Shown: positions 15,405 through 53,825 of the stretch, one piece after another
Position numbering within the stretch: position 1 is the stretch's first letter
Layout: every line of letters begins with the position of its first letter
Source of the DNA: Algoriphagus machipongonensis
Lineage (GTDB): Bacteria > Bacteroidota > Bacteroidia > Cytophagales > Cyclobacteriaceae
NCBI RefSeq assembly: GCF_000166275.1
Contig: NZ_CM001023.1
Location: 2,111,001-2,175,000 of the forward strand
Direction: 5' to 3'
Length of the DNA: 64,000 nt
Notes under the pieces: model-generated
The model's database searches: none
Told to the model about the DNA's origin: nothing
Seen by the model: only the letters and a program-made list of their open reading frames with translations
Translations under genes and position numbers: made by a program

Positions 15405-15450
15405 TTCACAACCCCCCAACTTACAACCAACAACCAACATCTAACAACTT
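15405..15450. repeat. 7-bp-period array abutting the wHTH gene
   Basis: Degenerate heptads such as AACAACC and AACATCT, with no G on the + strand, end two bases before the TTG start of the downstream gene. Confidence 0.7.
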
Positions 15451-15452
15451 TT

Positions 15453-15959
15453 TTGCTCGAATCCCTCGTCACATCTAAAACCCGCATAAAACTTCTTCTC
15501 AAGTTCTTTGCTCATGCTAATTCAGGATACCTGCGTTCTTTGGCCAAAGAATTTGATGAGTCTACTAATTCTGTTCGCGTCGAACTCAATCGCTTGACAG
15601 AAGCAGGTTTATTGGTTTCTGAGGAAGAGGGGAAAACCAAGCTTTACAAAGCCAATAAAAACCATCCCTTTTTCAATGAAATTACCAATATGGTCTCCAA
15701 ATTCCTCGGACTGGATGATTTGATGGAGAGAATCGTCAAAAGAATGGGAGAGGTGGAGAAGGCTTATATTGTCGGAGACTATGCATTAGGGATAGACTCC
15801 GGAACAGTCAATATGATCTTAATAGGTAAAAACCTGGATAAGGAATACCTGGAATTCATCAAAGAAAAAACCTTTGAAAAGGTCAATAGAAAAGTGGACG
15901 TAAAAATTCTGGAGAATGACCCGGGAGACATTCAAGGAATCTTGGTTTTTGGGAAATGA
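15453..15959 (+). CDS. wHTH regulator with C-terminal nucleotidyltransferase-like domain
   Basis: 168 residues, TTG start. Residues 8-75 form a winged helix of ArsR/MarR type (SLAKEFDESTNSVRVELNRLTEAGLLVSEEEG). Residues 95-165 resemble a minimal nucleotidyltransferase fold (AYIVGDYALGIDSGTVNMILIG). The canonical G-S plus two-aspartate motif is eroded there, so the domain probably binds rather than catalyses. In Bacteroidota such genes commonly head polysaccharide loci, and this is the first gene of the locus. It likely controls transcription of the downstream cluster. A 7-bp repeat array reaches its start codon. Confidence 0.72.
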   Translation: MLESLVTSKTRIKLLLKFFAHANSGYLRSLAKEFDESTNSVRVELNRLTEAGLLVSEEEGKTKLYKANKNHPFFNEITNMVSKFLGLDDLMERIVKRMGEVEKAYIVGDYALGIDSGTVNMILIGKNLDKEYLEFIKEKTFEKVNRKVDVKILENDPGDIQGILVFGK

Positions 15960-16010
15960 TAGGCTTCCTACCTACGGTAGGCAGGCTTTAAATTTTTCAC
16001 TTCTAATAAC

Positions 16011-16061
16011 TATTTCGCTCCCGCAGGGAGCCTATTTCTATAGTATTTCAACAGTATTTCC
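16011..16061. repeat. GCTCCC-GGGAGC palindromic repeat, copy 1
   Basis: It contains the perfect palindrome GCTCCCGCAGGGAGC, followed by CCTATTTCTATAGTATTT and a further TATTTC block. The same unit recurs at about 18171, 22402, 23475, 23520 and 27131. A CCTACCTACGGTAGGCAGG hairpin precedes it at 15967. Confidence 0.75.
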
Positions 16062-16081
16062 CAACTACCTCCGGCTGACAG

Positions 16082-16172
16082 GCTTTAAACTTTAAATCCT
16101 CCACTTTATACTTGGTGCTTGGTACTTCGTACCCCAAATACCATATACCAAATACCATTTACTCAACTCAAC
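16082..16172. repeat. 7-bp-period array abutting the permease gene
   Basis: Thirteen degenerate heptads (CTTTAAA, CTTGGTA, CTTCGTA, TACCATA, TACCAAA and similar) end exactly at the likely TTG start at 16173. Confidence 0.75.
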
Positions 16173-17000
16173 TTGGAACAAAAACAACATTATAAAGTAA
16201 TTCAACCTACTTCAGGTTGGCAATTAATTGATTTTAAGGAGCTTTGGAGGTATAAGGACTTACTTTATTTCCTAACTCTTAGAGGTATAAAAGCTCGCTA
16301 TGCCCAGTCAGTTTTAGGTGTGGCCTGGGCGATAATTCAACCATTATTTACAACGCTAGTCTTCACAGTTGTTTTTGGAAATCTGGCGAAAGTTGACTCA
16401 GATGGAATTCCATATACCCTGTTTTCCTACCTGGCACTTTGGCCCTGGAATTACTTTTCTGGAACACTTACCGAATCAGCAAATTCACTGATTCAAAATG
16501 CCAATATGATTACAAAGGTTTACTTTCCAAGAATGGTTTTGCCTTTGTCATCAATACTATCCAAACTACTTGATTTCTTGATTGCCTTTGTTGTGGTTAT
16601 TGGGATGATGATTTATTATCAGGTGACGCCGGGATGGGGTTTATTGTTTTTACCATTGCTGATTGTTCAACTTTTGATGTGTAGCCTGGGAGTGGGAATG
16701 ACTCTATCAGCGATGGCTGTAAAATACCGAGACGTGAAGCATGCTTTGACCTTTGTCGTCCAACTTTTACTTTATGCTGCTCCTGTGGTTTATAGTACAA
16801 CCGCAGTTCCTGCAGAATATCAAAAATTCTATATTCTAAACCCCATGGTAGGTGTCATAGAAGGGTTCAGAGCTGCATTTCTTGGCCGCCCAATGCCATG
16901 GGAATGGATCTGGCCAGGCAGTATCGTAGCCATTATTCTCTTTGTTTTCGGCATGATGTACTTTCGCCGAATGGAACGAATTTTTGCTGACGTAGCATAA
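16173..17000 (+). CDS. ABC-2 type polysaccharide exporter permease (Wzm-like)
   Basis: About 275 residues from the TTG at 16173; an in-frame TTG at 16119 would translate repeat DNA. The family pattern is clear: DFKELWRYKDLLYFLTLRGIKARYAQSVLGVAWAI, split here as ELWRYKDLLYFL and KARYAQSVLGVAWAIIQPL, then six membrane helices and the C-terminal ILNPMVGVIEGFR. It forms the inner-membrane channel that exports lipid-linked O-antigen or capsule, with the ATPase at 37505. The two subunits are usually adjacent but lie 20 kb apart here. The last ten codons are repeated three more times downstream. Confidence 0.9.
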   Translation: MEQKQHYKVIQPTSGWQLIDFKELWRYKDLLYFLTLRGIKARYAQSVLGVAWAIIQPLFTTLVFTVVFGNLAKVDSDGIPYTLFSYLALWPWNYFSGTLTESANSLIQNANMITKVYFPRMVLPLSSILSKLLDFLIAFVVVIGMMIYYQVTPGWGLLFLPLLIVQLLMCSLGVGMTLSAMAVKYRDVKHALTFVVQLLLYAAPVVYSTTAVPAEYQKFYILNPMVGVIEGFRAAFLGRPMPWEWIWPGSIVAIILFVFGMMYFRRMERIFADVA

Positions 17001-17177
17001 TTACAATCCATGAGGCGATCCCGATCAAACTTTATTGTATTAATTAATCGGGATGGAGAATGGAACGAATTTTTGCTGACGTGGCATAATTACAATACAT
17101 GAGGCGATCCCGATCAGATACAATTTGACAAGAAATCGGGACGCCGAATGGAACGCATATTCGCTGATGTTGCTTAA
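16969..17177 (+). repeat. Tandem copies of the permease 3' end (period 88-89 bp)
   Basis: Copy 1 (16969-17027) contains the true end of the gene. Copy 2 (17058-17116) matches it over 59 bp with two differences I can see, and includes the stop codon and the following CGATCCCGATCA. Copy 3 (17146-17177) keeps only the coding tail and stop. Each interval contains a CCCGAT...ATCGGG hairpin. A fourth tail copy lies at 17832-17860. Confidence 0.9.
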
Positions 17178-17352
17178 CTACCCCCCAACCCCCTGAAGGG
17201 GGAGCAAGTCACGAAAAAGCTATTAGGTATTTGAAGTATAACTTATTCGCAATAAAAATTTCTCCGCCATTATAGCAATCAAATAAAGATAAGGCCAATT
17301 CACCCCTTTAGGGGTCAGGGGTAGAAAAAGGCTAACGAATTTCTAAAAAAGA
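17178..17352. other. Gap with CCCC-GGGG palindromes before the DUF559 gene
   Basis: It contains ACCCCCTGAAGGGGGAG near 17187 and CACCCCTTTAGGGGTCAGGGG near 17302. Similar CCCC-GGGG palindromes follow the DUF559 gene, so the gene is bracketed by them. Confidence 0.65.
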
Positions 17353-17724
17353 ATGCATCACAGAGCTTCTCCAGAAATATTTAGACGAGCTAAAGAACTC
17401 CGGATGAAATTAACTCCTTCTGAAAATATATTGTGGGAGAGAATAAGAGCAAATAGGCTTAATGACCTACACTTCAGAAGGCAACATCCTGTTTCTAAGT
17501 ATATCCTAGATTTCTATTGTCATCAATATCGCTTAGGAATAGAACTAGATGGGGAAATCCATAATAAAATAGACCAAAAAGCAAGAGATGTAGCAAGGGA
17601 GGAAGACTTAAAAGCTTTGGGGATCCACATCCTTAGATTCAAAAATTCTTTTGTAATTCAAGAAACAGACGAAGTTCTCAAACTGATTTTAGTGGAAATT
17701 GAAAATCTTAACAAGTCACTTTAA
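17353..17724 (+). CDS. DUF559 (Vsr-like endonuclease fold) protein
   Basis: 123 residues, the usual length. Family features are LRMKLTPSENILWERIR, HFRRQHPVSKYILDFYC, the acidic motif LGIELDGEIH and the terminal LRFKNSFV. DUF559 belongs to the PD-(D/E)XK/Vsr-related nuclease group; the D in ILDFYC and E-D in IELDG fit the metal site. Biochemical roles are mostly unproven. It lies between two copies of the permease 3' end (17146-17177 and 17832-17860) and between CCCC-GGGG palindromes, so it looks like a small inserted cassette rather than a glycan gene. Confidence 0.82.
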   Translation: MHHRASPEIFRRAKELRMKLTPSENILWERIRANRLNDLHFRRQHPVSKYILDFYCHQYRLGIELDGEIHNKIDQKARDVAREEDLKALGIHILRFKNSFVIQETDEVLKLILVEIENLNKSL

Positions 17725-18399
17725 AATTAAAAGAAAAAGTGATGAGAAATAGGGCCCTGTTACTCATTATTAGCTCTTCAGTAACTTAGAATTTTACCTA
17801 TCTCCAATTTCTCCCCTTTAGGGGTAGGGGGTTGAACGCATATTCGCAGAGGTAGCATAAAAAGTAATCAGTTGGCAGTTGGCAGTCTCAGTTAACAGTG
17901 AGCACTGATAAGTAATTTCTTCATGACTCATACATTCCCTCTAAATGCCACATTCGAAATACTTTGTACAACTAACAACCAACAACAAATATGACCTTAG
18001 TTCCAGTCATTTCGAACGAGCGAATACTATTGAAAAAGGAAGAATAGCTAATACCGCGAGGAGAAATCTAAAAAGATTAAAATCAAACCACTTAATATTG
18101 CTTGGACTTTGGCAGAGAAATACAGAATCTTCGATTCTGAAATAGGTTTTTAAAAATAAATTTGTTCTCAATATTTCGCTCCCTCAGGGAGCCTATTTCT
18201 ATAGTATTTCAAAACTATTTCCAACTTTAAACTCTAAACTCTCCACTATAAACTTTAAACTTTATAAATCTTTATAGCTCCAGGAGGGACCTTATTTCAA
18301 CTAACACCTGTCCGCCGTGGCGGAACCAACAAACTATTATTCTATCAACTTTTTCTTCTCAAGAAGACTTGAATTCATCCACTAAAATCTTACCCATTA
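17725..18399. other. 675-bp gap filled with repeats
   Basis: In order: a CCCCTTTAGGGGTAGGGGG palindrome (17813), the fourth copy of the permease tail (17832-17860, encoding ERIFAEVA and stop), CAGTTGGCAGTTGGCAGT heptads (17868), a CAGTCATTTCGAACGAG element (18005), a GCTCCC-type palindrome (about 18171-18221), TTTAAACTTTA heptads (18212-18270) and a GTCCGCCGTGGCGGA hairpin (18309). The short ORF at 17945-18145 is made of these repeats and is not a gene. Confidence 0.7.
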
Positions 18400-19125: not shown

Positions 19126-19186
19126 ACACTGAAAAATGAATTTGAAATTGTATTTTTAACCATTCATCACTCGCACAAAATTTTAA

Positions 19187-20035: not shown

Positions 20036-20049
20036 TTTTGGACCTGTGT

Positions 20050-20187
20050 TTTTGTATTTATTACATCGTACTCCCAAATACTACATACTACATCCCACAT
20101 ACCAAATACCCCCATACTTAGTACTTGGTACATTGTACTTAATACTTATAACATCTAAAATCAGAAATCATACATCCTAAACCCCCA
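20050..20187. repeat. 7-bp-period array between two GT2 genes
   Basis: About 19 successive degenerate heptads (AATACTA, CATACTA, CATACCA, TGGTACA, TTGTACT, TAATACT, TCATACA) fill the gap. They end at the TTG start of the next gene at 20188. Confidence 0.8.
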
Positions 20188-21096: not shown

Positions 21097-21438
21097 TTCC
21101 TACCTGCAGAGCATAGTTTGTTGTAGCACAGTGAGTCAGTTTTCCAATCAAAAACCCATCACTTACTTCATGAGGGTGATTTTAAACTGAACTTAGGATT
21201 ATTACCTATACCGTCTTTCCTGAAAATTTCTCTTTGTCAAAACCATTGCAAAACAAAATTTCACAATTTTAAGAAGTTTATTCTCAGTGTTTTTTAATAA
21301 TCTTCATAATGAAAAAGTATTCTTTGCGATCTTAATCAGTTCAGTTATTTTGAATTCTTCAAGAAATGAATTTTGCCATGATAAAGAGTGAATATTTTAA
21401 ATCACCTTTGTCAAAGGTTTCCACTTTAAAGATTGAGA
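21097..21438. other. 340-bp AT-rich gap
   Basis: Unlike most gaps of the locus, this one lacks heptads and palindromes. It may hold a promoter for the FkbM-like gene; no convincing -33/-7 pair was found. Confidence 0.4.
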
Positions 21439-22263: not shown

Positions 22264-22665
22264 AACTGGAGTATTTTACTTTTCCTTTAAAATTTCTAAT
22301 ACCCTAGAATTGACCAGGCTAATTTATAAAAACGAAATTAAGCTTTGCAGAAATGCAGAACCCTCGATTCTGAGATATGATTGTAGTCCACAAACGCTTC
22401 TAATATCTCGCTCCCGCAGGGAGCCTATTTCAATAGTATTTCAACTGTATTTTTCCTTCAGAACTTTAAACTTGTAAAGGGAGTATATTTCTATTGTATT
22501 TCCATAGTATTTCGCCCGAAGGGCTTATTTCCACTTTCCAACTTCCCACCTACTACATACCACCTACCACATACTAAATACTACATACCACCTACTTTGT
22601 ACAACCAACTTTAAACTTTCAACTTCCCACTTATAACTTCCCACTTTAAACTTATCAACTTTAAC
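22264..22665. repeat. Repeat-filled gap ending in a 7-bp-period array
   Basis: It contains a GCAGAAATGCAGAACCCTCG element (22347) like one near 18112, the GCTCCC-GGGAGC unit (22402-22455) and a CGCCCGAAGGGC hairpin (22513). A heptad array from about 22536 to 22680 follows (ACATACC, ACCTACC, ACATACT, TTCAACT, TCCCACT, TATAACT, TTAAACT). The array runs into the GNAT coding frame without a start codon. Confidence 0.75.
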
Positions 22666-23331
22666 ATTCAACCCCTTCCTTTCGATTCCTCCCTTTTCAA
22701 CTACCCCGTAGGCAAAACGAAGGTAGATCAGGATTGGAATGAAAACTCCTTTTTGGATGCTGCATCAGAATTCCAACTCGTCTATATTTTTTCTGATTCT
22801 CCTCAGGAGTTTCAGAGTTCGGAGATTCAATTTATGGGAGAGAAGGTCACTTTTAAGAAGTTATTGAGTCAACCAAATCAGGTAGATGATATTCAGGTTT
22901 TCAACTCTACATTAAACCAACAAATTGCATCTTTGGCATTGGAGAGCGGTAAATATTCCCGGTTTAAAAAGGATGCCCGCTTAAACCTAAAGGAGTTTGA
23001 AAACTTATACCAGCACTGGATAGAAAAAGCCATTGACGAGGATATTGTCCTTACCAATAAAAGCTTGACTGCCATGGTGACAATTTCAGTGGAGGAAAAA
23101 GAAGCCAGCATAGGCTTATTGGCGGTGAATGAAAAGGAGAGAGAAAAAGGACTTGCCCGCCAACTCGTACAGTCAGCAGAAAATAGAGCTATTCATTTGG
23201 GAGCTGACAGGATGTTAATCAATACTCAGGAGCAGAATATCGCAGCATGTAATCTCTACAAATCCATGGGATACGAGGTTGCAGAAAGGGTATTTATTTA
23301 TCATTATTATAATACAGCTTCCCTGAGATAA
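22666..23331 (+). CDS. GNAT acetyltransferase of the WecD type, no canonical start codon
   Basis: The frame is conserved in style from about 22666 (IQPLPFDSSLFNYPVGK), matching the usual N-terminus of sugar-amine acetyltransferases related to WecD. No ATG, GTG or TTG occurs in frame between the TAA at 22612 and the TTG at 22753, which would delete the first 29 residues. ATT at 22666 is the only start-like codon at the expected place. The C-terminal GNAT core is intact: IGLLAVNEKEREKGLARQLV (acetyl-CoA site) and NIAACNLYKSMGYE. Its stop lies inside a dispersed repeat. It is paired with the sugar aminotransferase downstream, as WecD is with WecE, so it likely N-acetylates a 4-amino-6-deoxyhexose. 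Possibly a decaying gene. Confidence 0.7.
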   Translation: MQPLPFDSSLFNYPVGKTKVDQDWNENSFLDAASEFQLVYIFSDSPQEFQSSEIQFMGEKVTFKKLLSQPNQVDDIQVFNSTLNQQIASLALESGKYSRFKKDARLNLKEFENLYQHWIEKAIDEDIVLTNKSLTAMVTISVEEKEASIGLLAVNEKEREKGLARQLVQSAENRAIHLGADRMLINTQEQNIAACNLYKSMGYEVAERVFIYHYYNTASLR

Positions 23332-23488: not shown

Positions 23489-23783
23489 TAGGGAAACTAT
23501 TTCTACAGTATTTCCATAGTATTTCGCTCCCACAGGGAGCCTATTTCCAACCTACAACTAACAACCTCCTAAATACCATATACCACATACTACATACTAC
23601 CTACCACATACTACCTACCATATACCCATTCTTTGTACTTTGTACTTCGTACTTTGTACCTTAAATACCAGATACCACATCCCAAATACCACATACCCTA
23701 AACTTTGTACTTAATACATTGTACTTTGTACATCTCCTAAATCATACATCATAAATCCTACATCATACATCATACATCCCCCA
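23489..23783. repeat. Palindromic units plus long 7-bp-period array
   Basis: Two GCTCCC-type units (about 23475-23520 and 23520-23548) are followed by about 210 bp of heptads from 23570 (CATACTA, CCTACCA, GTACTTT, GTACTTC, ACATACC, TTGTACT, CATCATA). This is the longest array in the window. It merges into the aminotransferase frame. Confidence 0.85.
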
Positions 23784-24923
23784 ACTCCTTTCAACAAACC
23801 CTACCAAACCGGTAAGGAACTGACATACATCCAAGACGCGATCAATCGTGGCAAAATCTCCGGAAATGGTCACTATACCCATCTCTGTCAGGATTTTTTT
23901 GAGAAACGGTATGGATTTCAAAAATGCCTTCTCACCACCTCCTGCACAGATGCCCTGGAGATGGCTGCTATTCTTTTGGATATCCAGCCAGGTGATGAGG
24001 TGATCATGCCGGCTTTTACCTATGTATCTACGGCGAATGCTTTTGTGCTCAGGGGAGCCAAAATAGTTTTTGTGGATAGTAAGTCTGATCATCCCAATAT
24101 GGATGAAACTCGGATTGAAGAGCTAATTACTCCCAATACCAAAGCCATTGTTGTTGTCCATTATGCAGGAAAAGCCTGTGAAATGGATGCCATTATGGAG
24201 ATTGCAGAGAGGCATGACCTATTTTTGGTGGAGGATGCAGCCCAGGCCATAGATAGCTTTGATGGAGAAAAACCTTTGGGAGGAATAGGACATCTGGGAT
24301 GCTTCAGCTTCCATGAGACCAAAAATATCCAATGCGGAGAAGGAGGGATGCTAACGATCAATGATCCCCAATTCATCCAAAGGGCAGAGATAATCTGGGA
24401 AAAAGGAACGGATAGAGCAGCCTTCTTTCGTGGAGAAAAAAACAAATACGGTTGGGTAGATATAGGAAGTTCCTTTTTGCCATCCGAACTCAATGCTGCC
24501 TACCTCTGGGCTCAGCTGGAAAACCTAGATTCAATTCAGGAAAGAAGAAAGACGATTTGGGAGGATTACTATCACTTTTTTATCCATTCCGATAGAGAAG
24601 CTTCTATTCTACAGTCAACTTATCTAAATCAATTTCAGGAAGTTTTGGAACAAGAAAGTCTTTGGGATTCAATCCATGTTCCGGCAATTCAAAGCTCCTC
24701 CAATGCCCATGCATTTTATTTGGTGTTTGATAGCCAAGCATCTCGAACGCGATTTATAGAAGGTATGCTAGCAAAAGGAATTCTATGCATTTTCCATTAC
24801 CAGAATCTGCAGAATTCAGAATATTATCAAAGCATCAGCTCAGATCAAAGGCCGTTGCCCAATGCAGATAAATACGCTGATTGCCTAGTACGATTGCCTT
24901 TGTTTTATGAGTTGGGAAAGTGA
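23781..24923 (+). CDS. WecE-like sugar aminotransferase lacking a canonical start, shortened C-terminus
   Basis: DegT/DnrJ/EryC1 family, closest in style to WecE (dTDP-4-oxo-6-deoxyglucose transaminase). The conserved N-terminus TPFNKPYQTGKELTYIQDAI begins at 23784, followed by TTSCTDALEMAA. VEDAAQAID and the PLP-lysine region FSFHETKNIQCGEGG are intact. The first ATG in frame (23961) would remove about 60 essential residues. The open frame from the TAA at 23712 contains no ATG, GTG or TTG before it. The protein also stops at LPLFYELGK, about 18-20 residues before the usual family end. It should aminate a 4-keto sugar for the GNAT enzyme upstream. Either a non-AUG start is used or the gene is decaying at both ends. 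Confidence 0.75.
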   Translation, partial: PTPFNKPYQTGKELTYIQDAINRGKISGNGHYTHLCQDFFEKRYGFQKCLLTTSCTDALEMAAILLDIQPGDEVIMPAFTYVSTANAFVLRGAKIVFVDSKSDHPNMDETRIEELITPNTKAIVVVHYAGKACEMDAIMEIAERHDLFLVEDAAQAIDSFDGEKPLGGIGHLGCFSFHETKNIQCGEGGMLTINDPQFIQRAEIIWEKGTDRAAFFRGEKNKYGWVDIGSSFLPSELNAAYLWAQLENLDSIQERRKTIWEDYYHFFIHSDREASILQSTYLNQFQEVLEQESLWDSIHVPAIQSSSNAHAFYLVFDSQASRTRFIEGMLAKGILCIFHYQNLQNSEYYQSISSDQRPLPNADKYADCLVRLPLFYELGK

Positions 24924-24954
24924 AGCAGATTTAGGATGTATGATATTAGATATA

Positions 24955-25200
24955 AGATGTAAGGACTTCCAACCTCCCACCTACCTCCGGTAGGCAGGCT
25001 TCCCACCTATCTACAATCGACAGGCTTTAAACTCTCAACTTTAAACTTCCCACCTCCAGCTTCCAACTTCCCATCTTCTAAATACCACATACGCCCTACT
25101 TTGTACTTGGTACCTCGTACTTCGTACACCCCACATACCAAATACCAAATACTATATACTTCATTCAACTGTCCTCCGTGTCGAATTCCACATCCAACTC
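24955..25200. repeat. 7-bp-period array between convergent genes
   Basis: Heptads (AACTTCC, CACCTCC, TACTTTG, TACTTGG, TACTTCG, ATACCAA) are interrupted by a CCTACCTCCGGTAGGCAGG hairpin at about 24979. The array lies between the stops of the aminotransferase and the FAD oxidoreductase. Confidence 0.75.
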
Positions 25201-25201
25201 C

Positions 25202-26863: not shown

Positions 26864-27464
26864 AGGTTTTGGGGTTTTGTTAAGTAAGATTAATTCTGAT
26901 TAAAAGTTTTAAGATAATGATTTTGAGAAATATTGCTTTGCTGATATTCACCTTCGTTTAAATATTGGCTCCTAGGTTTCCTGAGATACAGCTTCCTACC
27001 TTCGGTAGGCAGGTGCTGAGATATTCGGCCTTTGGTAGAGAGATACAGCCTCGTCCCTCGGCTGAAATATAAGCTCCTTCGTCGCTTGAAATAGGCTTCG
27101 CTGAGATAGGGTTCTAAAATTATTATGTTTCAATATCTCGCTCCCGCGGGGAGCCTATTTCAATAGTATTTCAACAGTATTTCCCACTTCCCACTTCCTA
27201 ACCTCCAACCAACAACCAACAACCAACAACTTCAAACTTTAAACTTTTCACTTCTAACCTACCTTCGGTAGGCAGGCTTCCCACCTCCAACCTCGCAAAT
27301 ATCACCTACTTTGTACTTCGTACACCCCACCTACCCCATACTTTGTACTTAATACTTGGTACTTTGTACTTCCCAACCTCCAACCTCCAACTTCCAACCA
27401 ACAACTCCCATCCCCCTCAGAGAGCCTATTTTCATTGTGCCTAAAAAGTTGAATAAATGACGAA
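26864..27464. repeat. 600-bp gap: 166-bp direct repeat copy 2, palindrome and 7-bp arrays
   Basis: The direct repeat copy lies at 26981-27146 (partner 23323-23488). The GCTCCC-type unit follows at 27131-27183. Heptads run from 27180 to 27415 (AACCAAC repeated, AACTTTA, TACTTTG, CCAACCT), with another CCTACCTTCGGTAGGCAGG hairpin near 27257. No gene is supported. Confidence 0.8.
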
Positions 27465-30400
27465 TTATTGTTTTTTCCCAAAGCCAATATTTGGAATCAA
27501 TTTACTAATCCCTTCCATTACGATTCCTGCAGCACCTACTACTACTGTGGTTATAGCTTCGAGTTGTCCTAAAACACCTCGATTGAAATAACTGATAATC
27601 CCAATGACCAAAATGGCAAAACAGCTAAGCAACCAGCTGTAATTTGCTAGGGTGCCGTTTGATTTGGTATCTTTTTCAAACTCTTTGATCAACTCAACCG
27701 GACAATTATCAATTACAAAGTATCTAAAGACCACATCAAAAAATAAATACTTGAACTTATCCTCATCATAGACCAAGATGCCTTTTTGCGTCAGCCCGGA
27801 TAAGACCGACAGATTTCTTGAATTTATAAATCCCTCTTTGGCCATGTAGTAACAGAATTTCTTTTCATAAAAGCTTAATTCCGCCCATAAATTCAGATAA
27901 TATGCTTTTTTACACCGTAAACTTTTAATCAGTTTAAAGGTCTCCTCCTCATGTACTTTATCCTTGAGTAATGGTGATTCCTTTTCTTCCGCTTCTTGCT
28001 TCTCTGGAACCCCCTCTTTTGATTTCTTTGATTCCTCAAGAATAATTTTTGGCTTTATGGGTACATAATAAAATGAATAGTCACTCAGTAACTCCGTCAT
28101 TTGAACGAGCTTAATATTAGTGGTTTGGGTAGCGATTCCATAGTGAAAAATGCTCAGTTCCCTGATAGAAAATCCTGAACCCAAAACCAATATCTCATCT
28201 TTGTGATCGGCCTCCCAACCAATCAGTTTTTCGGCGATTTTATCTTCTTTTCCCAGGCAGTGAATATTTTTTATCAAAACCACTTTTTTCTTATTTGGCT
28301 TCTTTAAAACCTCCTCTTTTACAGGTTCTTCACTCTTTTCAGTGGGGGTTTTTGGAAGTGATGCATTACAGTCAATGATTTCAATATCATCTTCCGCAAT
28401 ACCGGGTATCTTGTCAATAATCCAGGCTTTAAACAAATCGGAATCCAGACCTGTAAGAAATAATCTTCTTTCTTTTGTCTTAAGGATATCCAACTTCTTA
28501 TTGGGGATGACATCACGCACAGTACTCGCAAAGCAAGTCTGTAATAGTTTTTGGGTGAGGGCATACATCCCGATCAACAATATTATTATCAGCAGGACGA
28601 TCAAGAACAAACCATAGTTCCACTGCAGGTTGTATCCCAATTTCATGTTCTTGCTGACCCTGTTAAGCATTTTATAATCGGCAAATACCAATTCTTTCAA
28701 TTGACCCTCAGAGAGGTCCACGATGGTGGAGGCAAAATTCCTTCTCGCCAATTCTAAATTCGGAGTAAAAATCCCCTGATTAAGAATTTCGAGCTCCTTT
28801 TTTTGCAATTGCAAAACCTCCTTTTTCTCGCCTTCCCAGATCTTGTTTTCTATGTTATTTACAGTGTCATAAACTCCAAATGCAGGTAAAAACCCTATGG
28901 AGAAAAAGAATAAAAATATAAACAGGGTGTAAAGACTTCGGGTAGCCAGTTTATCTTCCTTTTTTTCATCATCCTGCTGTGGCTCATCATCCTTTTCTGA
29001 GTCAGCCGATAATTGAGCCTTGATCCTATTTTTTTCTCTTTGAGGAATCCACCATACCACTAGTAATGAAAAAATCAGATTGAAAACGAGTACCCAAAAT
29101 CGATTCTCCAGGCTGGTTCCAAATTGCCATAGGAAAAATATCTGTAGAACTATGATTGCAAGAAACATCATACATCCCCTCGAATAGGCATGCAGCATCT
29201 TTGGATGATACATCAAGGTTCTGAATGGAGTCTTTTTCCAATTGTGCTGGGATCTTTCAATAAACAGATAATAAATAAGACCAATCAAAAGCACCAGAAA
29301 CAACAAGTAACCAAGTAAGAGACTAAGACTTTCCAGACCTACAACAGAAATAAACCGGTGGCCTAGGTTAAAATCTATAAAATATACCAACCAAAGCTTA
29401 GAATCGAGATTTTCAAATTCCAAAGGGACTAAAACAGCCCTGTATGCATTTCCATTCATCCTCAGGTCCATGAATTGTTTTTCCTCCGAACCCAACAAAA
29501 ACCTCATTTCCTCCCATTTCTCTTTTTCGACCAAATCCTGAATAGTTTGAATAGGAGTTTTAATCTGAGAGGAATTGAAAATCAATTCTCCGCTTTGTTT
29601 CATGACCAGAAACCTTCTGGTATTGTCATAAGGCACTGATTCGGCTTGAATACCAAAAGTAAGAGCTTCAACCTGAGCATTTTGAAAGGAATTTTCCCTA
29701 GGTTTTGCCTGCGTGCTGAGTACTAGTTCAGGTTTCCCGGATCTACGGGAAAATACCCTGGTTAAAAAATATTCGTTGTCTTGGCTATCAAGAAAATATT
29801 TAAAATACTCCCGGTCTTTTACACTGATATAATTCGGGTTTCCCTCTGGTACCAGTTCTTTAAATTCTGCATCGGTAATACTATTATCGTCATATTCTTT
29901 AAAATTAATTATGGTACCTTCTTTGGAGACCAGGATTTTTTCATTCACTTCAATGATCTTCATCATATCCTCCTGTAGTTTTTCTCCAGTATGAAAGCCA
30001 GTTATTTCTTTTAGTTTACTGATTGTAGTTTCTATTTCAACTACTTTTTTCATCTCCTCATTTTCATAAGTAAACAGGTTGCCCAAGAGGAAGTAGGAGG
30101 CACTCCAACCTAATACCACAAAGAGGAAAAAAAGTGAAATGGTATTAGAAAAAATAGTTCTTTGTTTGATGACATCTCCTGATCTGATCCCTAGGAAAGA
30201 AAATACCGGAATGCCCACAACCAATAAAATAACAAGGATCAGAAGAAGTACCAGAAGGTTGTAATTGACCTTAAAGGAAGCCTGATCCAGATTGTCCTCT
30301 GAAATAGCACCAAGGATATAGAAATTTTCCCCCTCTATCTGCAATTCGGTCAAAACCGCCTGATAATTGGTGTTCAAAAGATCAAAATCCATACTACGGG

Positions 30401-31055
30401 TTCCTAACCTTTTAGGAGCACTGCTATCTGGGAGATTTAAAGTAATTCCTGCCCATTTTTTGGGATGTTGAATTACTCCTGCAGAATCCAGGAACATCAA
30501 TTGATCAAAAAAAGAATTTAGGGCCCGGTCTTTTTTATAGAGATCTTCGATAGGAAATGAAGCATCAAACTGGATATTTTCATTTTGTAATATTAGAGAG
30601 TTAAAGGGGATGCCAAAGGTTTTCGAAAGTGCTCTTTGAACGCTCAGATTAAAAGGAGTTAACCATTCCGACAATCTATTTCCATTGATATTTTCAATGT
30701 GCAGTTTCCCCTGGGACACTCGAAGGGTAGACTGTTTTTCAGGCTTCTTCGAAATAGAAATCTGGTATTCAAATTGGGAATCTTTGGTAATAGTCTCGGC
30801 AAAAAGAGCCATTTTCATTAATCCCAATTCAGATTTATTGCTGATTAAAATCTGAATCTTCAATTGTTCCAATATTTCATCTTTGGAAGCGGAATAGGCA
30901 TCTAAGATGTTTTTTTTAACCAAGAGCATGTTTTGCTCCACGGTGGATTCCAGTTCTTTTCTGTTTTCCTGGGATTGGTGAAATAAAAAAATCATCAAAA
31001 TACCCAAGAAACACATCAGGCTCAGGCCTAATCCAAAAGTTTTGCTCTTTGTCAT
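27465..31055 (-). CDS. Large multi-pass sensor-like protein with Cache region and degenerate ATPase-like cytosolic domain
   Basis: 1196 residues; family not recognised. Hydrophobic helices lie at about 8-25, 265-290, 302-325, 572-598, 628-645, 653-671, 707-727, 812-835 and 1140-1158. Region 330-570 resembles a double-Cache sensor (VKDREYFKYF near 412, TRVFSRRSG). Linker 680-702 is strongly acidic/basic. Cytosolic region 836-1140 begins RRLFLTGLDSDLFKAWI where a P-loop would be expected, but lacks GKS/T, then has a strand-like KKVVLIKNIHCLG. Residues 1050-1115 look like a winged helix (LWAELSFYEKKFCYYMAKEG ... FRYFV). It may sense an external ligand and signal through a non-hydrolysing STAND-like core. 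ATG at 31055; upstream gap 800 bp. Confidence 0.6.
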   Translation of the reverse strand: MTKSKTFGLGLSLMCFLGILMIFLFHQSQENRKELESTVEQNMLLVKKNILDAYSASKDEILEQLKIQILISNKSELGLMKMALFAETITKDSQFEYQISISKKPEKQSTLRVSQGKLHIENINGNRLSEWLTPFNLSVQRALSKTFGIPFNSLILQNENIQFDASFPIEDLYKKDRALNSFFDQLMFLDSAGVIQHPKKWAGITLNLPDSSAPKRLGTRSMDFDLLNTNYQAVLTELQIEGENFYILGAISEDNLDQASFKVNYNLLVLLLILVILLVVGIPVFSFLGIRSGDVIKQRTIFSNTISLFFLFVVLGWSASYFLLGNLFTYENEEMKKVVEIETTISKLKEITGFHTGEKLQEDMMKIIEVNEKILVSKEGTIINFKEYDDNSITDAEFKELVPEGNPNYISVKDREYFKYFLDSQDNEYFLTRVFSRRSGKPELVLSTQAKPRENSFQNAQVEALTFGIQAESVPYDNTRRFLVMKQSGELIFNSSQIKTPIQTIQDLVEKEKWEEMRFLLGSEEKQFMDLRMNGNAYRAVLVPLEFENLDSKLWLVYFIDFNLGHRFISVVGLESLSLLLGYLLFLVLLIGLIYYLFIERSQHNWKKTPFRTLMYHPKMLHAYSRGCMMFLAIIVLQIFFLWQFGTSLENRFWVLVFNLIFSLLVVWWIPQREKNRIKAQLSADSEKDDEPQQDDEKKEDKLATRSLYTLFIFLFFFSIGFLPAFGVYDTVNNIENKIWEGEKKEVLQLQKKELEILNQGIFTPNLELARRNFASTIVDLSEGQLKELVFADYKMLNRVSKNMKLGYNLQWNYGLFLIVLLIIILLIGMYALTQKLLQTCFASTVRDVIPNKKLDILKTKERRLFLTGLDSDLFKAWIIDKIPGIAEDDIEIIDCNASLPKTPTEKSEEPVKEEVLKKPNKKKVVLIKNIHCLGKEDKIAEKLIGWEADHKDEILVLGSGFSIRELSIFHYGIATQTTNIKLVQMTELLSDYSFYYVPIKPKIILEESKKSKEGVPEKQEAEEKESPLLKDKVHEEETFKLIKSLRCKKAYYLNLWAELSFYEKKFCYYMAKEGFINSRNLSVLSGLTQKGILVYDEDKFKYLFFDVVFRYFVIDNCPVELIKEFEKDTKSNGTLANYSWLLSCFAILVIGIISYFNRGVLGQLEAITTVVVGAAGIVMEGISKLIPNIGFGKKQ

Positions 31056-31862
31056 GCCTAAAAGCTTTTATTTAAAAATGATTACCAAAGAAGAATTTTA
31101 TGCCCCAGAAATCGGATAATCCTTAAAAATCCAGTTATCTGTATTTAGTAAAAATTAATAAGAGAAATCTTATTGTACTTAAAATCAATGTATTATAAAT
31201 ATAAAGATTTTTTAAATCAGGCTAAAATTTGTACTTCAAAATCAAGCGAAGAGCAATGATAAATCAAATAATAGAGTCAAAGTTTGCGAATCCAACTCAA
31301 CCGAGTAAATTTATTACTCAGTCAGCAATTTGTCATTTCGACTTCCTCGATAGCTATCGGGAGGAGAAATCTCAATCCTATAATTTGAGTGTAATGAAAG
31401 TCTCAAATGAGACAAAGAAATAATGGGACTGAAAAAGCGGACCTGCCTCCCGCAGCGTGAGCTATGTAATTCCTGATAATTGGGACTGAAAGGGCGAAGC
31501 CATATCCAGTAAGCAGTGATCAGTAAACAGTCTCAGTAGTCAGTCTCAGTAACCAGTTCGCTTCACGTACTAAATACCAAATACTAGATACTTGATACTA
31601 GGTACTTTGTACATCTCATAGTGATTAGTAGGCAGTCTCAGTAAGCAGTGATCAGTGTCGAGTTAACAGTTTACTAAATACTCCATCTTTCCTATTTCAG
31701 ACTTCGTACTTGGTACTTTGTACTTTGTACTTTGTACCTTAAATACTACATACCAAATACCACATACCTTGTACTTAGAACCAAAACAGTAAACTTTCCC
31801 AATTAGCCTTCTGACTTAAAACCTTGCTGTTCAATTCTTTTTCTTTCCTGATATAAATTCTT
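31056..31862. repeat. 800-bp gap with palindrome and 7-bp-period array
   Basis: It contains the second copy of the 25-bp GAGTAA-TTACTC palindrome (31300-31324) and a GTCATTTCGACTTCCTCGAT element with GATAGCTATCGGG (31330). Heptads run from about 31500 to 31790 (CAGTGAT, CAGTAAA, CAGTCTC, TACTTTG, TACTTGG, ATACCAA). The ORF at 31229 is repeat-derived. AT-rich DNA from 31056 to 31250 could be the promoter region of the minus-strand gene. Confidence 0.7.
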
Positions 31863-41350: not shown

Positions 41351-41360
41351 AATTAATCAA

Positions 41361-42359: not shown

Positions 42360-42361
42360 GG

Positions 42362-45966: not shown

Positions 45967-47258
45967 AACTCCTCTTTACACAAGATGCTTTAGTTAATTC
46001 AGGAGCAGAACGGAGTCATTTAGAAATCCTTTCCAGATTTTCCACGGAAATAGAAGTCGTTTTTGTGTACTTCTATCCGAAACATGATTTAAAAGAGGAA
46101 TACGAAAAAGCCGGAATCCGGCTTATTTTTTTGCAGATTGCAGAGTCATATCACTTTCGCTTGGCGGTGACTCTATTGATAAAAGTGATTAGAGCCGAAA
46201 AGCCTGATCTCTTAATCTCTTCACTCTGGAGAGCTGATATCATCACTCGAATTGCGTCAGTGATCACTAGAGTTCCGCTTGTGGGAACACTTGTCAATGA
46301 TAGCTATGCTCCCATAGCTTGGAAGGATAAGAAAGGTTTGAAATACAAGTTGGTTTATTGGCTAGATCGGTTAACAGCCAGAATTCCCAAATATTGGATT
46401 GCAAATGCTCAGGCTTTGGTAGAGTCGCATGAAAAGACGTTGGGCTTGAATGGTAAGAAAATATCTGTTGTTTATCGGGGAAGATCTGTTCCAGAAACAT
46501 TTTGGACAAAAGATAAGCTTCGCGATATAGGCCTTCGGCGAGATATGCCTTCGGCGAAATATGATCAAGTTCAAAAGGGAAAAGATTGCTTCGTGCCCAC
46601 AGTGTCGGGACAGGCTCTTCCTCATCGCAATGACGGATATTTTAACTTTATTTCTTACGGGAGACTGTTGGAAAGAAAGGGCTTTCAGGATGCCATCCAA
46701 GCTTTTTCAAAGGTTCTTCAAAAATACCCCAATTGTACATTGACCATTTATGGAGAGGGGCCTTTTAGAACAGAACTTGAAAAACTAGTTCAGGATTTAG
46801 ATTTGCAAGAATCTGTTTTTCTTCCAGGAAAGATCTCCAACCCTATTGATTTATTAATATCTAACTATAATTCAACAGTAGTTAATCGAAACTTCCAATC
46901 ACATCATAAATCATATATCCTACATCCTACATCCTACAACTGTTTTCTTTTTCCCAGTTGGTACGAAGGATTCTCCGGTGCTTTGGTAGAAGCCATGATG
47001 TCGGGGATTCCAATTATCGCATCCAATATTTCTATGAATTTGGAGGCAGTCAGCCCCAAAACTGCTTTGATTTTTGAGGTTCAAAATAGAGATCAATTAG
47101 CTAATCAAATGATTTTTGCCATCGATCACCCGGGTCTAATGGCTGGTTTGGGGAAAGCGGCCCGAGAAGAAGCGATTGCTAGATTTGATATAGAAAAGAT
47201 TGCTAAAGACTATGAAGCTTTACTTTTTGAGATAAAAAATGGAATAAAGAATAATTGA
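45963..47258 (+). CDS. GT4 family glycosyltransferase carrying two in-frame repeat insertions
   Basis: 431 residues, about 60 more than typical GT4 enzymes. The N-domain starts LLFTQDALVNSGAERSHLEI; the donor domain has FISYGRLLERKGFQDAI, YGEGPFRTELE and WYEGFSGALVEAMMSGIPII (E-x7-E). Two extra segments interrupt it. Residues about 182-222 come from intergenic-type repeats (DIGLRRDMPSAKYD; VSGQALPHRND), and residues about 300-326 include a 7-bp-period array (SHHKSYILHPTSYN). Both leave the frame open and lie in predicted loops before conserved strands. Activity may persist. Confidence 0.85.
   Translation: MKLLFTQDALVNSGAERSHLEILSRFSTEIEVVFVYFYPKHDLKEEYEKAGIRLIFLQIAESYHFRLAVTLLIKVIRAEKPDLLISSLWRADIITRIASVITRVPLVGTLVNDSYAPIAWKDKKGLKYKLVYWLDRLTARIPKYWIANAQALVESHEKTLGLNGKKISVVYRGRSVPETFWTKDKLRDIGLRRDMPSAKYDQVQKGKDCFVPTVSGQALPHRNDGYFNFISYGRLLERKGFQDAIQAFSKVLQKYPNCTLTIYGEGPFRTELEKLVQDLDLQESVFLPGKISNPIDLLISNYNSTVVNRNFQSHHKSYILHPTSYNCFLFPSWYEGFSGALVEAMMSGIPIIASNISMNLEAVSPKTALIFEVQNRDQLANQMIFAIDHPGLMAGLGKAAREEAIARFDIEKIAKDYEALLFEIKNGIKNN
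46507..46632. repeat. Intergenic repeat inserted in frame in a GT4 gene
   Basis: ATAGGCCTTCGGCGAGATAT resembles the CTTCGCTGAGATAGGC part of the 166-bp repeat. GATTGCTTCGTGCCCACAGT and CTCATCGCAATGACGG match the common CATTGCGAGG...GAAGCAATC palindromic repeat type of Bacteroidota. Confidence 0.7.
46903..46940. repeat. 7-bp-period array inside a GT4 coding region
   Basis: CATCATA, AATCATA, TATCCTA, CATCCTA, CATCCTA run in phase, as in the intergenic array at 23740-23780, but within an open GT4 frame. Confidence 0.8.
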
Positions 47259-47284
47259 GGTTTCTCAGTTGTTCCTCCTTCGAA

Positions 47285-51077: not shown

Positions 51078-51832
51078 TTAAATACTTGTTTTCTATTAAC
51101 CCTGGACGCTCAGGTTCCCATTATTTATCGAATGTTCTCAGTCATGTAAAAGGAATAAGTTCTAATCATGAACCTTCTCCAAGAATGAATGGTAAAGAGA
51201 TGATGGAATTTTTAAAAGGGAAAAATGAGGGTTTGGTAAAACTAATGCCTCAAAAGATAAAGTCAATTCACGAAAATCTTGGTGTAAATGAATGTTATGT
51301 TGAGACAAGTCATCTGTTTATCAAAGGGTTTGGCTGGATGATTCCAGAGTACATTCCCCAAGAGGAAATTGGGGTTATAGTTTTAAAAAGAGAGAAGCAA
51401 AAAGTCATTGAAAGTTTATATAGAATTCATACTACTCCATTGAGTTATCATGGAAGGATGTGGGTTATGTTTCCTTCTATGAAAAATGCTATCAATAAGA
51501 TAAACAACTTAAATCTTATTAAATATCGATTTTTGTACTTATTAAATAGGCTCATCCGAACTGGGTATAATCCTTTTCGGAAATTAAGAATCGAGAAAAA
51601 GCTCTTCCCAAAGTATGAAAAAGAGCTAACAGAATGGTATATAAATGAAACTTATGCTCAAGGAGAATTATTTATTAAAAAGTTTCCAAAAATCAAAGTT
51701 TATAATACAAATGTGGAAAATTTAAATAAAGTGGAAGAATTCGAAAAAATGTTTGATTTTTTTAATTTAAACTTCAGACCGAAGCCCTCATTCTTTGAAG
51801 TAATTAATAAAAAAACTAATCTTAAAAGATAA
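51074..51832 (+). CDS. Sulfotransferase-like P-loop protein
   Basis: 252 residues. The N-terminus YLFSINPGRSGSHYLSNVLS has the PAPS-loop-like pattern (G-R-S-G-S) of sulfotransferases, and VIVLKREKQKVIESLYR stands where the 3'-phosphate site R-x-P is usual, but with R-E-K instead of R-D-P. So the fold is likely and activity uncertain. ATG start within the previous stop. It probably modifies the same glycan as the neighbouring GT4 enzymes. Confidence 0.65.
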   Translation: MIKYLFSINPGRSGSHYLSNVLSHVKGISSNHEPSPRMNGKEMMEFLKGKNEGLVKLMPQKIKSIHENLGVNECYVETSHLFIKGFGWMIPEYIPQEEIGVIVLKREKQKVIESLYRIHTTPLSYHGRMWVMFPSMKNAINKINNLNLIKYRFLYLLNRLIRTGYNPFRKLRIEKKLFPKYEKELTEWYINETYAQGELFIKKFPKIKVYNTNVENLNKVEEFEKMFDFFNLNFRPKPSFFEVINKKTNLKR

Positions 51833-51910
51833 GTTTTTTTAATTCTGGTGATTGCTAAAATAAATTCTCTTAAACCCGCTTTTTCTTAATTCAGTTTTAA
51901 AATTTCAAGT

Positions 51911-53110
51911 TTGCTAAAGATCAAAGTCTTACATCTTATTAAGTCCCTTGGAAGAGGAGGAGCGGAAAAACTGATACCAGAAACTGCCATGGTTCATCAT
52001 CAGGATAAATTTGAGTTTCATTGCCTCTACTTTTACCATCAGGAAAAGAACATTGTAGATGAATTAAAGGCTGCGGGTATTCAGGTGCATTTAATTCCCT
52101 CTGGGAATTTGGGCTTGTTTTTTCAGGTGAATAAAGTAAGAGATTTTGCAAAAGAAAAAGGTATAGATATCATCCATGCACACCTTCCTTGGGCTGGGAT
52201 TTTGGCAAGATTTGTTGGTAAAAAATTAAATATCCCCATTGTCTACACAGAGCATAATACATGGGAGCGATATAATAAGCTTTCCTATTGGGGTAATCGG
52301 ATGACCTTTAAGCAACAGGACATTGCCATTGCAGTGTCCAATGAAGTGGCACTTTCCATGCAGCTTAACTCCATGGTAGATCCCTATCGCCGTGGAGGAA
52401 GAATGAAGATAAAAGTGATACAGAATGGGGTGAATACGGATGTTTTTAGAAGGCAGCTAATTGACCCCTCACTTATTGAAGAACCTTCACCAACTCCCCC
52501 TTTTCAAAGGGGGGCAGGGGGGATTAATTTGAAAAACCAACTGCAAATTCCACTATCATCCATAATCATAGGCATCGTTGCCGTCTTTCGAGACCAAAAG
52601 CGCCTTTGGATCTGGATTGAATTGGCCTTGAAAATTCTGGAAAAATGCCCGAATACTCATTTCCTGTTGGTTGGCGATGGGGAATGGAGGGAAAGATTGG
52701 AAAAGCAGATAAAAGATTCTGGAAAAGAAAACCATTTCCATTTGGTGGGAGTGCAGACTCAGGTGATTCCATACCTTTCTATCATGGAAATTTATCTCAG
52801 TACTTCCGAGTTCGAGGGTTTACCCATTGCCATGCTGGAAGCCATGTCCTGTGAAGTACCAGTAGTAGCTACAAGAGCTGGGGGAATAGGAGAGGTCGTG
52901 CAACATGGAGTGCAGGGTTATTTATCCGAGATCGAAGAATATGAAGAGTTGGTTGATTATTGCATCCAACTAATTCAAAAACCAGAACTTCATCAAATGA
53001 TGTCTCTAGCCGCCAGAGAAAGGGTTGTCAAACAATTTAGCATGACCAGGATGGTTGAGGAGTTGGAAGGAGTCTATGAGTCGGTTATTGGTAAATCAGT
53101 GGAGCAGTAA
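51911..53110 (+). CDS. GT4 family glycosyltransferase with palindrome-derived insert
   Basis: 399 residues, TTG start. KVLHLIKSLGRGGAEKLIPE, IDIIHAHLPWAGILARF, EHNTWERYNKLS, VAVFRDQKRLW, LVGDGEWRERLEKQ and STSEFEGLPIAMLEAMSCEVPVVAT. Residues about 188-206 (LIEEPSPTPPFQRGAGG) are encoded by a CCCCCTTT-TC-AAAGGGGG palindrome and its flanks, placed between the N- and C-domains where others have a short linker. The last codons (GKSVEQ) lie in a 16-bp tandem repeat that continues downstream. Function likely kept. Confidence 0.88.
   Translation: MLKIKVLHLIKSLGRGGAEKLIPETAMVHHQDKFEFHCLYFYHQEKNIVDELKAAGIQVHLIPSGNLGLFFQVNKVRDFAKEKGIDIIHAHLPWAGILARFVGKKLNIPIVYTEHNTWERYNKLSYWGNRMTFKQQDIAIAVSNEVALSMQLNSMVDPYRRGGRMKIKVIQNGVNTDVFRRQLIDPSLIEEPSPTPPFQRGAGGINLKNQLQIPLSSIIIGIVAVFRDQKRLWIWIELALKILEKCPNTHFLLVGDGEWRERLEKQIKDSGKENHFHLVGVQTQVIPYLSIMEIYLSTSEFEGLPIAMLEAMSCEVPVVATRAGGIGEVVQHGVQGYLSEIEEYEELVDYCIQLIQKPELHQMMSLAARERVVKQFSMTRMVEELEGVYESVIGKSVEQ
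52493..52516. repeat. CCCCC-GGGGG palindrome inside a GT4 gene
   Basis: A perfect 8-bp stem (CCCCCTTT / AAAGGGGG) followed by GGCAGGGGGG. It is the same class as those near 17187, 17302 and 17813. Confidence 0.75.
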
Positions 53111-53203
53111 ATCAGTGGAGCAGTAAATTAGTATATTAGTTTACCAATTAACCATTTAACCGATTTACTAATTAACCAATTTTCCATTTTACTCTAAAAC
53201 CAA
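53094..53203. repeat. Tandem and 7-bp-period repeats before the second four-helix bundle gene
   Basis: TAAATCAGTGGAGCAG occurs twice in tandem (53094-53125) and covers the GT4 stop codon. Heptad-like TTTACCA, ATTAACC, CGATTTA follow up to the ATG at 53206. Confidence 0.75.
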
Positions 53204-53205
53204 CC

Positions 53206-53583
53206 ATGCCACCGATATCAGATTTTAGAACATTAGAATGTTGGATGAAGTGTAAAGAACTTAGGGAGGTTATTAAAACTGAAGTAATCAGTAAGCTTCC
53301 AAACGAAGAAAAATATAGATTAGCAGATCAATTGATCCGTGCTGCTAGGTCAACCACAAATAATATTGCAGAAGGCTGGGGGAAATTTCACTACAAAGAT
53401 CAAATTAAATATTGTTATCAAGCAAGAGGTTCTTGTGCTGAGATAATTGATCACATGGTAATTGCGTTTGAAGAAAAATATTGCTCTAAAGAAACATTTG
53501 AATCTATAGAAAAGCTTGCTCAAGAGTCTATGAAACTGATAAATGGTTATATTAATTATTTGAACAAAAGTTCTAAAGAATAA
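53206..53583 (+). CDS. Four-helix bundle protein (S23/IVS family)
   Basis: 125 residues, ATG start. FRTLECWMKCKELREVI, KYRLADQLIRAARSTTNNIAEGWG, KDQIKYCYQARGSCAEIIDHM and the terminal YINYL follow the family pattern. It is related to but divergent from the protein at 14972. Solitary, not a glycan enzyme, and completely surrounded by 7-bp-period repeats (53094-53203 and 53584-53825). Function unknown; an RNA-binding or helper role has been suggested for the family but not proven. Confidence 0.85.
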   Translation: MPPISDFRTLECWMKCKELREVIKTEVISKLPNEEKYRLADQLIRAARSTTNNIAEGWGKFHYKDQIKYCYQARGSCAEIIDHMVIAFEEKYCSKETFESIEKLAQESMKLINGYINYLNKSSKE

Positions 53584-53825
53584 CTTTATCAACTGACTCA
53601 CTAATCTACGATTCAACTGATTTACAAATTTACCAATAAACTGATTTACTGATCTACCATTCTACTGATCAACAATTCAACTTGTTTACCAATTTACCGA
53701 TTTACTAATTAACCAATTTACCAATTTACCGATTTACCGACTTACTAATCAACCAACTTACTAATTAACCAATTTACCGACTTACTAATTAACCAATTAA
53801 CCGATTTACCAATTAACTGACATAC
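53584..53825. repeat. 240-bp 7-bp-period array
   Basis: Heptads ATTTACC, AATTTAC, CGATTTA, CTAATTA, ACCAATT and variants run from just after the four-helix bundle stop to one base before the TTG start at 53827. Almost no G on the + strand. Confidence 0.85.

Follow-up and report, generated by a model that had tools for sequence, protein, structure and literature searches.

What are the degenerate seven-base repeat arrays that fill gaps between the genes of a surface-polysaccharide locus in Algoriphagus machipongonensis, and what keeps their units in register while the letters drift? We analysed a 64,000-nt stretch of this genome (NZ_CM001023.1, positions 2,111,001 to 2,175,000; hereafter the window, with positions counted from its first base), in which a sequence-only reading had described twelve heptad-filled gaps. 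Our answer centres on a gene family, S23, also known as the 23S rRNA intervening-sequence protein (IVP) family (PF05635). Inverted arms flank many S23 genes of Bacteroidota and of cyanobacteria, as well as one locus in Gemmatimonadota, and we hold with high confidence that S23 genes and heptads are associated. With less assurance, we lean towards explaining the arrays as S23-element arms, the nine gene-less arrays of the window among them as relic arms. Such an element would lie between genes and consist of an S23 gene with a heptad or octad array upstream and an inverted copy of that array downstream.

Two S23 genes between inverted arms in the window

Pfam scans of the open reading frames (ORFs) adjacent to the arrays returned glycosyltransferases and others fitting a surface-polysaccharide locus, and PF05635 twice. 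Both S23 genes lie near or between arrays and had been overlooked by the sequence-only reading. They sit between protein-coding ORFs, not inside a 16S or 23S rRNA gene, and the stretches around them, about 14915-15448 and 53091-53825, would be the two S23-bearing elements of the window (A and B).

Element A lies on the minus strand. Its S23 gene, predicted to encode a four-helix bundle, spans 14972..15382 (PF05635 7.9e-23, TIGR02436 1.2e-23), and the real start may be the internal ATG near 15340. The upstream arm, (ACAACCA)n on the + strand, spans 15421..15448, with a lag-7 identity of 0.84 over 15423-15448. The 14-bp core of the downstream arm, at 14915..14928, matches 15421-15434 on the other side of the gene exactly in inverted orientation. 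This perfect 14-bp inverted repeat (IR) of the AACCAAC heptad has an IR score of 28, where shuffles reach at most 27.

Element B, on the + strand, is built from octads. Its upstream arm (53091..53193), S23 gene (53206..53583; PF05635 1e-28, TIGR02436 2.6e-26, solved relative 2gsc E 1.8e-8) and downstream arm (53584..53825) follow one another, and the gene has the same strand as both neighbours. The two arms had been listed as heptad gaps at 53094 and 53584; their period is 8, with lag-8 identities of 0.66 and 0.64 and lag-7 identities of 0.30 and 0.33. Their inverted match scores 43.5, and the highest shuffle score was 32.

S23 arms in the genome, the family and the phylum

At each S23 locus, the upstream and downstream flanks (150 bp on each side of the gene) were matched in inverted orientation and significance was assessed by shuffling; for the surveys, an IR score of at least 27 in these flanks was the criterion for arms. 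The genome holds 11 PF05635 loci, two of them with internal stops. Inverted flanks were significant at eight of the 11 (P <= 0.002), and eight also scored at least 27; among 307 control genes from the same genome, five reached this value. The arm units vary by locus, with ATTTAGT, AAGTACG and AAGGTGA types and, at trpE-trpG, TTGAAAAA-type octads.

S23 genes were present in 68 of 78 family genomes and in 157 of 198 Bacteroidota genomes. For family and phylum we took the best-scoring locus per genome, without a random draw, and tested the 30 best of each; the phylum set includes two loci of the own genus. Inverted scores of at least 27 were found at 20/30 family and 15/30 phylum loci, and direct scores of at least 27 at 1/30 and 2/30, respectively. 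When arms were paired with the wrong locus, 9.9% (family) and 3.8% (phylum) reached the IR cut-off. Fisher P values for the link between S23 and inverted flanks were 8.6e-11 (own genome), 1.7e-20 (family) and 4.2e-14 (phylum), with own-genome genes as the only controls.

The arms share a step as well as an orientation. Among 28 of 39 elements scoring at least 26, the best lag was 7 in 24, 8 in three and 10 in one, and among the 15 phylum elements with arms it was 7 in ten and 8 in five. In 42 of 69 elements (ungapped score of at least 27), arm-to-arm identity was 0.84 in the best register, a value biased upward because the register is chosen; it was 0.67 in the better register one or two periods off and 0.27 out of phase. 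Neighbouring units of one arm had an identity of 0.64. The best register was ahead by more than 0.15 in 22 of the 42 arm pairs. S23 genes are usually sense to their neighbours: at 62 of 69 loci they have the same strand as the ORFs on either side, vs 157 of 307 control genes (ORFs called mechanically; at two loci one neighbour was not called).

GTAC heptads resembling those of the window serve as S23 arms in other genera (L082, L097 and L100), and across 78 family genomes the S23 count correlated with matches to the TAC/CAT heptad pattern (rho 0.47, P 2e-5, kinship ignored). Such matches occurred in 45 of 68 genomes with S23 and in 1 of 10 without. Some gene-less arrays of relatives (L267, L272, L276) resemble two-arm hairpins by eye. 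At one locus of another genus (L252), S23 precedes an apparent trpG, and a further heptad array lies directly behind that gene.

S23 genes on cyanobacterial plasmids

A tblastn search of 72,556 plasmids with one S23 protein matched 18 records, 17 cyanobacterial and one from Gemmatimonadota. We used 16 of the 18, leaving out H9 and H13 as likely duplicates, and tested 16 cyanobacterial S23 genes, one of them found in a control stretch; the Gemmatirosa record, which has no gene table, was tested apart. Nine of the 16 cyanobacterial genes had an IR score of at least 27, vs none of 160 other coding sequences from four of those plasmids (P about 3e-11), and a lag-7 array lay within 150 bp of 12/16 vs 6/160. 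The flank units were AGTAGGG, AACAGGG, AAAAGGG, GGGTGTA and GCAGGGG, with unit identities of 0.54-1.00, and look like the short tandemly repeated repetitive (STRR) sequences of cyanobacteria. Octads flank the cyanobacterial S23 gene from the control stretch and the Gemmatirosa gene (period 8, IR 56, direct 50; scores without shuffles).

On Pseudanabaena galeata plasmid pPg_01 (L376), S23 lies between cas6 and cas4 with long direct AAAAGCT/AAAAGCC arrays on both sides. Phage carriage was considered and rejected: at E 1e-3, one S23 protein matched none of 50,697 phage records, and no S23 gene was confirmed in viral contigs.

Orthologous sites with and without S23

Three S23 sites, all between protein-coding ORFs, were compared across genomes of the same genus, using the 30 best of 60, 57 and 56 matching genomes; 6 of 110 trp loci were dropped with one gene missing. 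By NCBIfam, lepA, sucB and lpd passed their cut-offs and trpG passed as the trpG/pabA subfamily; trpE and folD are best names below cut-off.

Some sites without an intact S23 gene keep arms. Between trpE and trpG, S23 was present in 15 of 29 gaps (counting the broken copy in L228) and absent in 14. L226 and L229 have the G-poor downstream arm alone, without S23, L230 has the upstream arm plus the start of S23, and L227 has a weak remnant. Orthologous arms at this site differ by the size of a unit (34 vs 42 nt). Between lepA and folD, S23 was present in 24 of 30 gaps; arms without an S23 match were seen in L318, L327 and L328, and weakly in L314, with a faint S23 remnant in L328 (E 0.0016). We infer that S23 was lost at the sites that keep arms. 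In one trpE-trpG gap (L251), a GC-rich palindrome breaks the downstream arm of the S23 element.

Between sucB and lpd, S23 was present in 10 of 30 gaps; its arms there are GTACCAA/GTACAAA heptads, which resemble those in the gene-less arrays of the window. Four gene-less gaps of this site (L343, L346, L349, L353) show, by eye, a terminator-like hairpin and T run between two different heptad arrays.

Gene-less arrays of the window

The lag scan used 70-bp windows and, as threshold, the top value among 20 local-composition shuffles of the whole window. Lag 7 exceeded it at nine of the ten gaps that had been named as 7-bp, with islands starting at 15362, 16071, 18190, 20032, 22503, 23526, 24926, 27153 and 31530; lags 3, 5, 6 and 9-13 gave zero islands in the window. 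The lag-7 peak over shuffled sequence that the sequence-only reading had proposed as a check is present. Its count of twelve heptad gaps is reduced: the gap at 17868 stays under the threshold, with a 43-bp stretch inside it at lag-7 identity 0.61, and the two gaps around the S23 gene of element B hold octads.

The nine gene-less arrays, none assigned to a strand, have lag-7 identities of 0.58-0.71 and several unit types per array. From left to right, they lie at 16082..16165 (TACTTGG then ATACCAA types; lag 7 0.62, G 8%), 17868..17910 (short, containing G, CAGTTGG type; 0.61), 18220..18268 (AACTTTA type, G-free; 0.71), 20060..20150 (ATACCAC and TACTTAG types; 0.62), 22536..22672 (ATACCAC then AACTTCC types; 0.63, G 1%), 23569..23785 (about 215 bp in several blocks; 0.68), 24963..25155 (0.59) and 27180..27410 (0.62) on opposite sides of a flavin adenine dinucleotide (FAD)-oxidoreductase gene, and 31505..31785 (alternating CAGTNNN and TACNNNN blocks; 0.58, G 15%). 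The + strand had been described as nearly G-free in most arrays, which agrees with seven of the nine (0-9% G) and fails for those at 31.5 kb (15%) and 17.9 kb (28%).

Likewise, the arrays had been said to occur in no other part of the window, and this is accurate save for one weak lag-7 stretch (ACATCCT) within an ORF at 46862-46979, which looks unrelated to the gap arrays. TAC-type arrays lie outside the window too, at 748 kb, 1.866 Mb and 2.192 Mb of the genome, and a systematic genome sample (20 x 20 kb) held four lag-7 islands of other unit types. With one threshold, nine islands per 64 kb in the window vs four per 400 kb sampled indicate a higher density in the window. An assembly artefact is unlikely because the genome is a single contig of 4,786,724 bp and many other assemblies contain equivalent arrays.

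Other repeats share these gaps. An 11-bp tandem unit (TATTTCAACAG type) directly precedes several heptad arrays (16033, 18193, 22426, 22486, 23498, 27156), often with small GC-rich palindromes, as a second dispersed repeat family. Palindromes of CTACCTTCGGTAGGCAGG type, which look like repetitive extragenic palindromic (REP) sequences, lie in or next to arrays at about 15960-15990, 25010-25030 and 27290-27315. At L068:16650-17100 (genome 2,191.7 and 2,192.0 kb), a tandem duplication has produced two copies of a heptad array and the sequence around it, spaced by 276 bp. The 1196-aa ORF between two arrays at 27465-31055 has a weak DUF4131 match alone.

Pairing and folding of the arms

In the element model, the arms would pair in the operon transcript into an imperfect stem with the S23 ORF in its loop, like the intervening sequences (IVS) of rRNA that RNase III excises. 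Sense-strand duplexes between the 110 nt before and the 110 nt after the gene (20 shuffles per locus) reached a z-score of -3 or lower at 12/30 family loci, 7/30 phylum loci, 8/16 cyanobacterial loci and 1/9 own loci, and at 1/70 control genes. The single own case is element B (z -5.0); element A gave z -1.8. These values make a paired stem plausible for some of the S23 elements, among them one of the nine own loci, and such stems may function and be cut as in the rRNA intervening sequences.

On the + strand, among the gene-less arrays, the region 15960-16190 folded with z -3.3, including palindromes that lie outside the array, the array at 23.6 kb with z -1.9 and the others with z -0.9 to +1.4. 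The lack of + strand hairpins, save perhaps at 16.1 and 23.6 kb, is what single arms would lead us to expect and is weak evidence for them. On the minus strand, z was -4.6 at 23.6 kb, -4.0 at 25.0 kb and -2.0 at 20.1 kb, and the antisense (minus) strand of element B gave -4.3. The minus-strand folding at 23.6 and 25.0 kb is not predicted by the element model.

Origin of the arrays

We suggest that the arms gain and lose whole units while their letters drift, so that the array family at one site would vary between species; slippage would alter arm length, and the S23 protein would act on the arms. Loss of the S23 gene would leave one or both arms behind, and the nine gene-less arrays of the window would be arms left over or stripped in this way, in most cases resembling the downstream arm in their low G content. 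The register had been taken earlier as a sign of a copying process, slippage or templated extension. A step of 7 or 8 bases does fit the off-phase drop in arm identity to 0.27, the unit-sized length differences and the heptamer variation of Coxiella described below. The named mechanisms fare less well: slippage alone leaves inverted pairs around one gene family unexplained, and templated extension by a reverse transcriptase gained no support, PF00078, the model searched, having no match in the genome.

Several observations weigh against the element model. In the own genome, three S23 loci lack significant inverted flanks (L074, L077 and the broken L017), the direct match exceeds the inverted one at 53.2 kb and at L078, and the arms of L078 are not heptads. 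For element B the direct match is 67.5, and thus units of both orientations are present. The S23 gene of element A is antisense to both neighbours. The polarity of the arms is not universal, with a G-rich upstream arm in 23 of 28 elements and a C-rich downstream arm in 21 of 28. No S23 remnants were found next to the nine gene-less window arrays. Just two of nine own flank pairs reached duplex z -2, and the two elements of the window, each folded as a whole on the sense strand, did no better than shuffles (B z +0.5, A z -0.8). Register-specific co-evolution of the arms was rejected at trpE-trpG, where nine of 15 arm pairs (leaving out L251, with its interrupted arm, and five GTTGNAAA-type pairs) paired as well across species (0.837) as with their own partner (0.827; permutation P 0.91). 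The octad unit at this site, TTNNAANN, is conserved, and shifting the arms by 8 or 16 leaves the pairing just as good, which would let a stem slide.

The serious rival is that the arrays come first. They would belong to gene borders in their own right, as leader, 3' stem or terminator-flanking sequence, and arise from 7- or 8-nt slippage, with S23 genes settling in or between them as at a preferred landing site. Among the 20 sucB-lpd gaps without S23, 18 of 100-147 bp have heptads of other families at both ends on average (mean lag-7 identity 0.52 and 0.55 at the ends, 0.23 in the middle) and contain no S23 remnant; arrays at both ends of such gaps imply that arrays may come first. Among 29 TAC-array loci of relatives (one per genome, some sequence stretches ending early), S23 lay within 1.5 kb at five and 24 had none nearby, and most arrays of the window are gene-less as well. 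Slippage in 7-nt steps has been proposed for heptamers generally (Mrazek et al., quoted in PMC4679880 and PMC4692102). What this rival does not predict are the inverted, register-matched copies on either side of S23 genes, or gaps that keep an arm and a piece of S23, as in L230 and L328. We regard it as a real contender, less probable than the element model.

That the arrays are plain degenerate microsatellites, formed by replication slippage in variable DNA and unrelated to S23, is improbable. Their density in a variable polysaccharide locus would fit, and so would their uneven presence among close species: the FAD-oxidoreductase gene of the window is flanked by arrays of 193 and 231 bp, and among its 12 closest orthologues (own included) long arrays occur at two, the own one and L115, where they are built from unrelated heptads; L113 and L121 have a weak single island and eight have none. 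However, such microsatellites would account neither for the S23 association seen against control genes in the own genome, the family, the phylum and cyanobacteria, nor for the inverted arrangement and the restriction to periods 7 and 8. A retro-type origin, in which S23, as a relative of Avd, would partner a reverse transcriptase that lengthens the arms in 7- or 8-nt steps and spreads the elements via RNA, is very improbable, given that this genome, complete and with 11 S23 loci, has no match to PF00078, the one model searched, even though PF05635 is said to resemble Avd (4DWL/2GSC alignment cited for homology, PMC10053308) and S23 is mostly sense to both neighbours.

Among these explanations we retain the element model, in which the window's gene-less arrays probably derive from S23 elements, slippage may change arm length and the S23 protein may act on the arms.

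Relation to known systems

The nearest known system is the 23S rRNA IVS of Coxiella burnetii, an S23p ORF between complementary arms that is excised by RNase III, with GACAGAT heptamers present two or three times, depending on the strain, just before the S23p start (PMC4990558). The S23 elements share with it the ORF between arms that match in inverted orientation, the tandem heptamers of variable copy number and the AG-rich upstream arm. They differ in lying between protein genes, in occupying many loci of one genome with a heptad specific to each, and in having degenerate arms that are longer at some sites. Anatomically, S23 elements represent an IVS variant located outside rRNA genes. Among the matches listed in the open-licence literature, as far as their available text goes, no link between S23 and heptad repeats appeared outside rRNA, and the Coxiella IVS paper alone ties the two.

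The STRR sequences of cyanobacteria consist of near-identical units of one among few fixed sequences. They had been named as the nearest analogy to the window arrays, and the likeness is strengthened in that both are intergenic tandem heptads and STRR-like heptads form inverted S23 arms on cyanobacterial plasmids. However, the sequences are other ones and the window units are not near-identical, with 0.58-0.71 in its gene-less arrays vs 0.54-1.00 in cyanobacterial S23 flanks. Calothrix heptanucleotides are cited in PMC4692102. The same source describes GGGAATC in Xanthomonas and GGGGA(C/T)T in Nostoc as intergenic heptads, mostly between co-directional genes and close to where the 5' ORF ends, with 70 and 75 inverted pairs of heptads in two Xanthomonas genomes and few in Nostoc. 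In Anabaena, it reports that few of the GGGGA(C/T)T repeats pair in inverted orientation and that none were found on its plasmids, a further point against the element model. It studied a single unit family, and S23 goes unmentioned (0 occurrences).

The TAACTGA repeats of Beggiatoaceae, cyanobacteria and five Bacteroidetes are intergenic and lie mostly just upstream of start codons (PMC4679880). Like the arrays here, they have other heptamers beside them and shorter, repeat-less gaps at the same site in relatives; unlike them, they have one unit only, and that paper does not mention S23 (0 occurrences).

In the systems of REP sequences with their associated tyrosine transposases (RAYT) and of miniature inverted-repeat transposable elements (MITE), a small gene is flanked by inverted repeats and gene-less copies are more numerous. 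S23 arms differ in being locus-specific periodic arrays and not a conserved palindrome or terminal repeat, and no transposase was seen. Sites without the element do exist, in that same-genus genomes have trpE-trpG gaps without an S23 element. From diversity-generating retroelements the S23 elements are set apart by the missing PF00078 match in the genome, despite the likeness of PF05635 to Avd (PMC10053308).

A much wider reading is tentative, and we consider it rather unlikely: that the heptads of cyanobacterial STRRs, of the Bacteroidota arrays, of the Coxiella IVS and perhaps of the Xanthomonas GGGAATC pairs are arms of one class of S23 stem elements, with an Avd-like S23 protein creating or maintaining the arms in 7- or 8-nt steps and gene-less arrays as non-autonomous, MITE-like relics.

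Implications

S23 proteins are described as having "no known function" (PMC4990558), and according to a survey quoted in PMC4679880, among repeats with units of 5-11 nt it is heptanucleotides that are most abundant in most of the genomes surveyed; slippage is the sole cause proposed for them. If the element model is true, these repeats and the S23 proteins would explain each other and become one testable system. Intervening sequences would then be common between ordinary genes instead of an oddity of rRNA, and the long-known heptad repeats of other bacteria may share an origin in S23 elements.

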